Shown piece after piece: positions 18,807-20,328 of a DNA stretch of 39,012 nt (position 1 is its first letter; each line of letters begins with the position of its first letter). Both the position numbers and the translations under genes were made by a program. The notes beneath the pieces are model-generated. The model saw only the letters and a program-made list of their open reading frames with translations. It made no database searches and was not told where the DNA came from. The DNA is from an uncultured Synergistales bacterium (GTDB lineage: Bacteria; Synergistota; Synergistia; Synergistales; Aminobacteriaceae): positions 1 through 39,012 of the forward strand of contig CAJODZ010000009.1 in the NCBI GenBank assembly GCA_905233645.1, given 5' to 3'.

Positions 18807-19268
18807 TTATTTTACAAAAGAGTTATACCAGTTTTCGCGGCCAATGAGTTTAATGAGTTCAAGCTGCTGTCCGCCCCAGTACATGTCCTCTTCTTCGTCC
18901 TTGTAATAATCTTTGAGCATGTCGTAGGTCGTGACATCGCATTTCGCTGTTTCCATGATACCAGCAAGCCACGCTAAACCGTCTTTTGAGACCTGTAAAT
19001 CATATTTCACAAATTCGAGCGCGTCGCAACAAACAGGAGCGTCTTTTTTATCTCCATTCTTGACTTCTCCGCCTAAATCTAAAATTCTATCGACGCACTT
19101 AATGACATAGCCTCTTTCTTCTTCGGCATGTTCAGCGTATTTGTCAGCTAACTTTTCTAAACCCTGCGATGCAAAAATTCTTGACTGAATTGCATGTCCG
19201 TCGGCCTGTTGGGCAAGCTGAGTTACAATTTCCTGAAGTCCTGCAATAATTTTTTCTTTGTCTGACAT
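18807..19268 (-). CDS. Ferritin-like (four-helix, Glu-rich) protein
   Basis: Helical; EHAEEERGYV and YKDEEEDMYW carboxylate motifs. Confidence 0.75.
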   Translation of the reverse strand: MSDKEKIIAGLQEIVTQLAQQADGHAIQSRIFASQGLEKLADKYAEHAEEERGYVIKCVDRILDLGGEVKNGDKKDAPVCCDALEFVKYDLQVSKDGLAWLAGIMETAKCDVTTYDMLKDYYKDEEEDMYWGGQQLELIKLIGRENWYNSFVK

Positions 19269-19494
19269 AGTGAACTACCGCCACTTATAGAAGATGGCAG
19301 CTTCCTTTAATCCTCCTAACCTGAATACTTCTTAGCCTTCAGGATTTCGTTTTACAGGAATCAGTTTATGAGGCTAACCCTTCCCTACGCTCCATAGGTA
19401 CTGTTACCTTACGGGCAACATTTGAAAACCTGCGTGGCATTATACCATACAGGCAATTCATCTCCCACTTGAAGAAGTGGGAGTCTTCTTGCTA
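19269..19494 (-). mobile_element. Protein-less IS200/IS605-like remnant (PATE/MITE-like) with both end hairpins and omega-RNA-like interior
   Basis: Minus strand LE-like TAGCAAGAAGACTCCCACTTCTTCAAGTGGGAG (9 bp stem, 4 nt loop); RE-like GGAAGCTGCCATCTTCTATAAGTGGCGGTAGTTCACT; no ORF inside. Confidence 0.75.
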
Positions 19495-20328
19495 GTTAAT
19501 GATAAAAATTTCTGGCTCAAGCCGAGACATAAAAGCACCAGAAAATTTTATCATGATATCGTTCATTTCTTCGCTGGTTGATTTAATTGCGTGCTTTGGA
19601 CATCTGTTTACGCAAGCAAAACAGCCAATGCATTTATCAAGGTCAAATTTTTTATTCTCAATGTCAATAGCGTCAACCGGACAATGACGAACACAAGTTT
19701 TGCATTTTATACAAGCGTCTGAAATTATTTTTAATTTATATGACGGCGGAAGCATATACGGTTCATCGGGGTGTTCTTCACGATAAGCAATAATTTGATT
19801 GCCTGCTTCAGCAGATGACCAATTTGTTTTTGGCATTGTGTGAAGATTTAAATCGCCGCTCAAAACTTTTTCATAAGCACGCTTGCCGAAATCTAACATA
19901 ATTTTTTCGTCTTCAGCATCAGGCCGTCCGTCTCCAAGTTCAGGACTTATAGAATGCCTGGCTATAAAAGCTCCCAACGCCGCAACTTTGAAACCCTGTT
20001 TTTCAGCGCGTGAGAGCATTTCGTTAAGAGCTATCCCGTAATAACCGTTGCCATAAGTTATAACACCAATAAAAGGCGTATCATTAGCATTAAGACAGGC
20101 AAAAATTTTATCAAGTTGCATTAAAATCAGTCCGGCTGTCATAGTTCCGAAAATCACTAAATCACCGCTGTCAAAATTGTAATCTTTCTTGCGGCTTTCT
20201 ACACTTAAAAGGTCGTGAGTTTCAACGGGAATATCTTTGATTGACGACGCAATCTTTTTGACGATTTTCTCACTTAAACCGCTGGGGCTGAAGTAAACTA
20301 AATGCAATTTTTTAATTTTCTTAGCCAT
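19492..20328 (-). CDS. EFR1-family flavodoxin-ferredoxin fusion
   Basis: Flavodoxin-like N-terminus (LVYFSPSGLSEKIV) plus two 4Fe-4S motifs CIKCKTCVRHCPVDAI and CIGCFACVNRCPKHAI. Confidence 0.9.
   Translation of the reverse strand: MAKKIKKLHLVYFSPSGLSEKIVKKIASSIKDIPVETHDLLSVESRKKDYNFDSGDLVIFGTMTAGLILMQLDKIFACLNANDTPFIGVITYGNGYYGIALNEMLSRAEKQGFKVAALGAFIARHSISPELGDGRPDAEDEKIMLDFGKRAYEKVLSGDLNLHTMPKTNWSSAEAGNQIIAYREEHPDEPYMLPPSYKLKIISDACIKCKTCVRHCPVDAIDIENKKFDLDKCIGCFACVNRCPKHAIKSTSEEMNDIMIKFSGAFMSRLEPEIFIIN

Follow-up and report, generated by a model that had tools for sequence, protein, structure and literature searches.

A probable protein-less IS200/IS605 element with a promoter-like box and an RNA-like core at a gene junction of an uncultured Synergistales bacterium

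Results and discussion

The EFR1 and ferritin-like gene locus

The window, as the whole analysed stretch of 39,012 nucleotides from an uncultured Synergistales bacterium is called here, carries on its minus strand a gene for an EFR1-type flavodoxin/ferredoxin protein (19492..20328, with Fer4 domains) followed by a gene for a ferritin-like protein (18807..19268, PF00210, E=2e-13). The EFR1 gene ends with a TAG stop at 19494-19492, the ferritin-like gene starts with an ATG at 19268-19266. An initial annotation, made from the letters alone, had described the stretch in between, 19269-19494, as an ORF-less IS200/IS605-like element bounded by two hairpins. Both hairpins were located, a perfect CTCCCACTT-GAAG-AAGTGGGAG hairpin at 19462-19483 and a second palindrome (CCGCCACTT...TGGCAG) at 19278-19300 that adjoins GTGAACTA on the plus strand, and the ORF list holds no frame of at least 50 aa inside the element. 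The position between the two genes was right, but the exact edges were not: alignment of the copies from the same genome set the borders of a complete PATE-type IS200/IS605 mini-element of 232 bp at 19501 (left end, LE) and 19270 (right end, RE) on the minus strand. The element had also been said to abut the ferritin-like ATG (19266-19268); the two are adjacent, with a single T between the right end and the start codon.

Copies and ends of the element

A 256-bp query (19255-19510) yielded 20 matches in the own genome (G000; 1.57 Mb, 94 contigs, 80% complete). About ten were complete or near-complete short copies, several were fragments at contig ends and a few were the ends of longer elements. 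Besides the window copy, the near-complete copies were 84-92% identical over ~210-280 bp, most of them somewhat longer than the 232 bp of the window. Twenty own-genome matches with unrelated flanks exclude a chance similarity. The copies agree from the C at 19501 to the C at 19270 and diverge beyond, except for a constant TTTAT on the left. Nearly every copy is preceded by TTTAT, rarely by TTAT or TTTAC, and closes with GGTAGTTCAC, while the right flanks are random and no target duplication was present in the alignment. At the window locus this target or transposon-adjacent motif (TAM) lies 5' of LE at 19502..19506 on the minus strand, where it is at the same time the 3' end of the EFR1 coding sequence (GAA ATT TTT AT). 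The element begins with CATTAAC and ends with GTTCAC, which are not inverted repeats; the hairpins are subterminal. The LE hairpin (CTCCCACTTcttcAAGTGGGAG, 19462..19483, minus strand) showed compensated changes in the copies L011 and L014, and the RE hairpin is CTGCCATCTTCTATAAGTGGCGG (19278..19300, minus strand). Shared ends, subterminal hairpins without terminal inverted repeats, a fixed target without duplication, multiple mobile copies and the lack of a protein gene place the element among the non-autonomous IS200/IS605 derivatives known as PATEs.

Six contigs of the own genome (C24, C38, C51, C58, C72 and C82) end in or near copies; the assembly is therefore interrupted by the mini-element, which probably has more copies than were counted. 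Around CCCATAGCCTCGGAAACTGATT in the core, copy L012 (G000:C26:19395-19674) has an internal duplication; ~19 nt are missing there from the window copy and a longer stretch from L016. A 17-bp inverted repeat of 94% identity lies at 19499-19554, in the 3' part of the EFR1 gene (ATGATAAAAATTTCTGG / CCAGAAAATTTTATCAT, 22-nt loop). One arm takes in TTTAT and the three bases with which the element begins, and the element could therefore have inserted into a hairpin. A match of the same positions, 19499-19554, to the Rfam family mir-3012 was rejected as a chance match to this inverted repeat.

Related elements with TnpA and TnpB

TnpB C-terminal ORFs on contigs C57 and C68 of the own genome (PF07282) run directly into the same RE, AAGTGGCGGTAGTTCAC, and on contig C63 a matching LE (92% over 63 bp) is followed by a putative TnpB start. 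From the placement of TnpB relative to the ends, the sense of the element is the minus strand, with the perfect hairpin in LE and the other in RE. The initial annotation, sound in substance, had missed this orientation as well as the −10 box and the omega-RNA-like core described below. In other species of the genus, matching LE and RE enclose complete TnpB genes (~1.3 kb), and LE-TnpA-TnpB-RE elements of 1.7 kb with matching ends were present in two genomes (G033 C31 and G016 C191). Pfam assigned the genus elements to Y1_Tnp (E 4e-42) and Cas12f1-like_TNB/OrfB_IS605 (PF07282/PF01385/PF01797). The initial annotation had called for a search for tnpA/tnpB elements with these ends; TnpB tails in the own genome and complete elements in the genus, with and without TnpA, bear out its assignment to IS200/IS605. 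Two TnpB types occur in the genus: one of 425-444 aa that tends to TTTAT|CAT-like targets, like the window family, and another that follows TTTAA|C targets.

An intact cognate TnpA was not found in the 80%-complete own assembly, where Y1 matches were contig-end fragments. Among these are IS200-like Y1 transposase fragments (L029-L032) at the ends of contigs C27, C17 and C6, which suggest a separate multicopy IS200 element that was not assembled whole. The own genome also harbours a different protein-less IS605-like element of ~280 bp with the TTTAA target type (L169, G000:C46:3919-4196), with a match of 126 bits to the TnpB-type omega-RNA.

For the frequency in the genus, a covariance model of the tails of TnpB elements was used (model R1), which matched in 36 of 43 genus genomes. 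Sixty R1 loci with upstream DNA were hand-picked among the matches listed, partly from loci already known to have a nearby LE, and the protein-less fraction is thus only an estimate: 29 loci had a full-length TnpB, 7 had part of one (several of these run off a contig end), 6 were unclassified, and 18 were LE-RE elements of ~180-410 bp with at most the last ~45 codons of TnpB. Protein-less derivatives probably arose repeatedly in the genus, and in the window lineage more than a dozen copies have accumulated.

A promoter-like box and an RNA-like core

The element is more than a fusion of two ends, since an extended −10 box and a structured core follow the LE hairpin. The extended −10 promoter-like box (TGGTATAAT, 19439..19447, minus strand) is recognised by its conserved position, and its activity is a prediction. 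Family copies have 6-8 of the 8 matches at a constant distance from LE, most of them all eight, and the best score averaged 7.3 of 8 across 27 protein-less elements, compared with 5.4 in shuffled sequence. A sigma-70 scan that required a −35 box did not report it.

The core occupies 19270..19430 on the minus strand. It is ~160-180 nt long in the family and ~19 nt shorter in the middle of the window copy than in sister copies. In the family stems 98.7% of the cells are paired, with few broken pairs; the copies are so alike that covariation within the family is weak. The best structural sign is an apical stem that is kept while its length changes, as CCTGAA...TTCAGG is shortened to CCCG...TGGG and CCTG...CAGG. 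The RNA fold of the window copy itself is unexceptional (z -1.45). The equivalent region of TnpB-bearing elements has strong covariation, with 41 double-change cells against 18.6 after shuffling.

Model R1 matched the window element from end to end with 42.9 bits (E 1e-11). After removal of RE the 5' part scored 9.3 bits, hence most of the score comes from the shared RE. Outside RE, homology extends only to the first hairpin and a GCCU/AGG helix; an ACC-hairpin and this helix are common to both types. In the first hairpin, ACCUAUGG-AGC-GUAGG of the window type corresponds to ACCUGUGG-GAC-GCAGG of the TnpB type with pairs exchanged. In its middle the core is unlike the TnpB omega-RNAs. The reverse model R2, built from window-type elements, matched in 25 of the 83 family genomes searched, mostly at TnpB-type tails, among them tails in other genomes of the genus. 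Because of the weak 5' match and the score driven by RE, we call the core omega-RNA-like, not a proven omega-RNA. Rfam gave nothing above threshold for the window element, its sister copies or the TnpB elements.

In the genomes G007, G018, G026 and G034, across species, the core is 86-95% identical, and relatives with a matching core include goat-rumen Synergistaceae and uncultured Fretibacterium assemblies. The covariance search of the 83 family genomes found high-scoring window-type copies in 5 species, and those inspected were protein-less. A TnpB-linked mother copy of the window core was not found by the pattern search of genome contigs and viral contigs or by the DNA search of 43 genus genomes. 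RE adjoins the flank on one side of the element and TTTAT stands on the other; by analogy with the reRNA architecture (PMC8612924), the guide is predicted to be the ~20 nt of host DNA directly past RE, the start of the ferritin-like gene (TATGTCAGACAAAGAAAAAA, 19250..19269, minus strand).

The rewritten gene junction

The ferritin-like protein was present in 14 of 61 genomes searched. The comparison with empty sites proposed in the initial annotation was possible at nine orthologous loci with both genes intact, where the genes are separated by 14-35 bp without the element. In these relatives EFR1 ends with LEPEIF[FIM] or ELFL before the stop, and in most of the nine loci a Shine-Dalgarno sequence (TAGGAGG) overlaps the stop or follows it. 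The annotation had made its reading depend on related IS605 elements and on a sequence other than a leader conserved in relatives; the elements exist, and the nine loci lack the sequence. In the window EFR1 ends with LEPEIFIIN, encoded at its end by ATC ATT AAC TAG, and from the C of ATC onward the sequence belongs to the element. The ORF list, the copy alignment and the orthologous loci place the stop (19492..19494, minus strand) within the LE sequence CATTAACTAG. The element thus supplies the EFR1 stop, as had been supposed, and occupies the place expected for the native TAGGAGG leader of the ferritin-like gene, which agrees with the supposed leader replacement.

The native stop/SD leader is gone in the window and the native spacer is missing entirely, perhaps with the exception of one T. 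A simple IS605 insertion removes nothing, and so at least ~13 bp (stop and SD), judged by the relatives, were lost before or after the insertion. Two relatives have GAAATTTTTATG-TAG at the end of EFR1, and others have a similar T-rich ...TTTAT(G) in their leaders. With the motif at both places two routes are possible: an insertion at the EFR1 end with a later deletion on the right side, or an insertion in the leader together with a repeat-mediated deletion on the left side. By the borders given here, the element-free junction would read TTTAT joined to TATGTCAGAC, or have a native TAGGAGG leader between the two. In one relative (L050, G034:C41) EFR1 appears truncated after its first Fe-S motif, and a few bases on the ferritin-like gene follows in frame. 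The window copy illustrates how one insertion rewrites a gene junction, as a stop for one gene and a leader for the next.

Interpretation and alternatives

With high probability the feature is a protein-less IS200/IS605 element (PATE) that was inserted 3' of TTTAT at the EFR1 end and mobilised by TnpA in trans. Precedent supports a mobilisation by a Y1 TnpA that would recognise both subterminal hairpins, and the many copies make past movement in trans very likely. A TnpA from elsewhere would peel and paste the element as a single strand without target duplication. From the extended −10 box an omega-RNA-like transcript may start, with a 3' end reading into the ferritin-like gene. Together with TnpB made elsewhere and the flank as guide (TATGTCAGACAAAGAA), it could direct a cut of the empty site, upon which the element would be restored; it could also give the ferritin-like gene its new leader. 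A guide function of this transcript for TnpB in trans is conceivable, at somewhat less than an even chance.

A reading as an ordinary conserved intergenic leader, riboswitch or terminator would suit the co-oriented genes on both sides and the hairpins, but the empty orthologous loci refute it, and many copies at unrelated sites without an Rfam match leave it practically no probability. Recruitment of the element to serve the ferritin-like gene as promoter and 5' leader would fit the absent native stop/SD, the promoter-like box pointing into that gene and a weak SD, GGCGGT, 8 nt upstream of the ATG. We consider such domestication improbable, since the element occupies the EFR1-ferritin-like locus in one genome only and other copies lie at unrelated intergenic sites; its strong AGGAGG is > 40 nt away from the ATG, and GGCGGT is inside the RE hairpin.

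A stronger contender, though falling short of even probability, is a dead PATE, a mere passenger of transposition with recognisable ends, a decaying core and no functional RNA. The core middle unlike TnpB omega-RNAs, the weak match of the 5' part alone, the internal deletion of the window copy against its sisters and the failure to find an intact cognate TnpA in the own assembly agree with decay. The core identity across species, the retained −10 position and the helices kept through length changes disagree with it. A further, tentative proposal is held as a minority possibility: a swarm of stand-alone guide-RNA transposons in the genus, gene-less and consisting of promoter, omega-RNA and ends, would parasitise TnpA for moving and TnpB for retention, each copy aiming a trans-supplied TnpB at its own empty site. 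Within it, the window family would have acquired a scaffold of its own, distinct from all TnpB-linked omega-RNAs found in the genus. The usual view of protein-less IS200/IS605 elements is that of dead ends that retain their termini alone; many of those described here keep a promoter-like box and an RNA part. If the RNAs of these elements act in trans, an element need not encode the nuclease itself to be retained by RNA guidance. A limited literature search found no paper on IS605 elements with an omega-RNA only, and precedent may exist; one paper reportedly touches on such elements in Geobacillus.

Comparison with known systems

In the preferred reading, the element is a PATE and so belongs to a class already known (PMC3119063, PMC7290912), not to a new kind; the added interest lies in the conserved promoter-like box and RNA-like core, in how often such elements recur within the genus and in the rewritten junction. 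As in the PATEs of Haloquadratum walsbyi, of which the homogeneous ones are > 90% identical, the element is protein-less, multicopy and without target duplication, and has near-terminal palindromes in common with IS605-type transposons of the same genome (PMC3119063). In the parts of that report available to us these PATEs are described as fused terminal sequences, with a promoter or guide-RNA part unreported, whereas the present element resides in a bacterium and has a structured core and a conserved −10 box (PMC3119063). A PATE-like element of Halanaerobium hydrogeniformans is similar in its composition of LE hairpin, tnpB 3' end and complete RE without tnpA, but it is a single copy, in contrast to the proliferated family with a distinct core described here (PMC7290912). 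In ISDra2, TnpA excises single-stranded circles and inserts them 3' of the target, and TnpB with an RNA from RE plus ~16 nt of flank cuts the empty site of TAM and flank (PMC8612924). Unlike the ISDra2/IS608 type, the window element has no TnpA or TnpB gene and uses TTTAT instead of TTGAT/TTAC as target; it shares with this type the subterminal hairpins, the insertion 3' of a short T-rich target doubling as TAM and, as a prediction here, an RE RNA scaffold that continues into the flanking DNA (PMC8612924).
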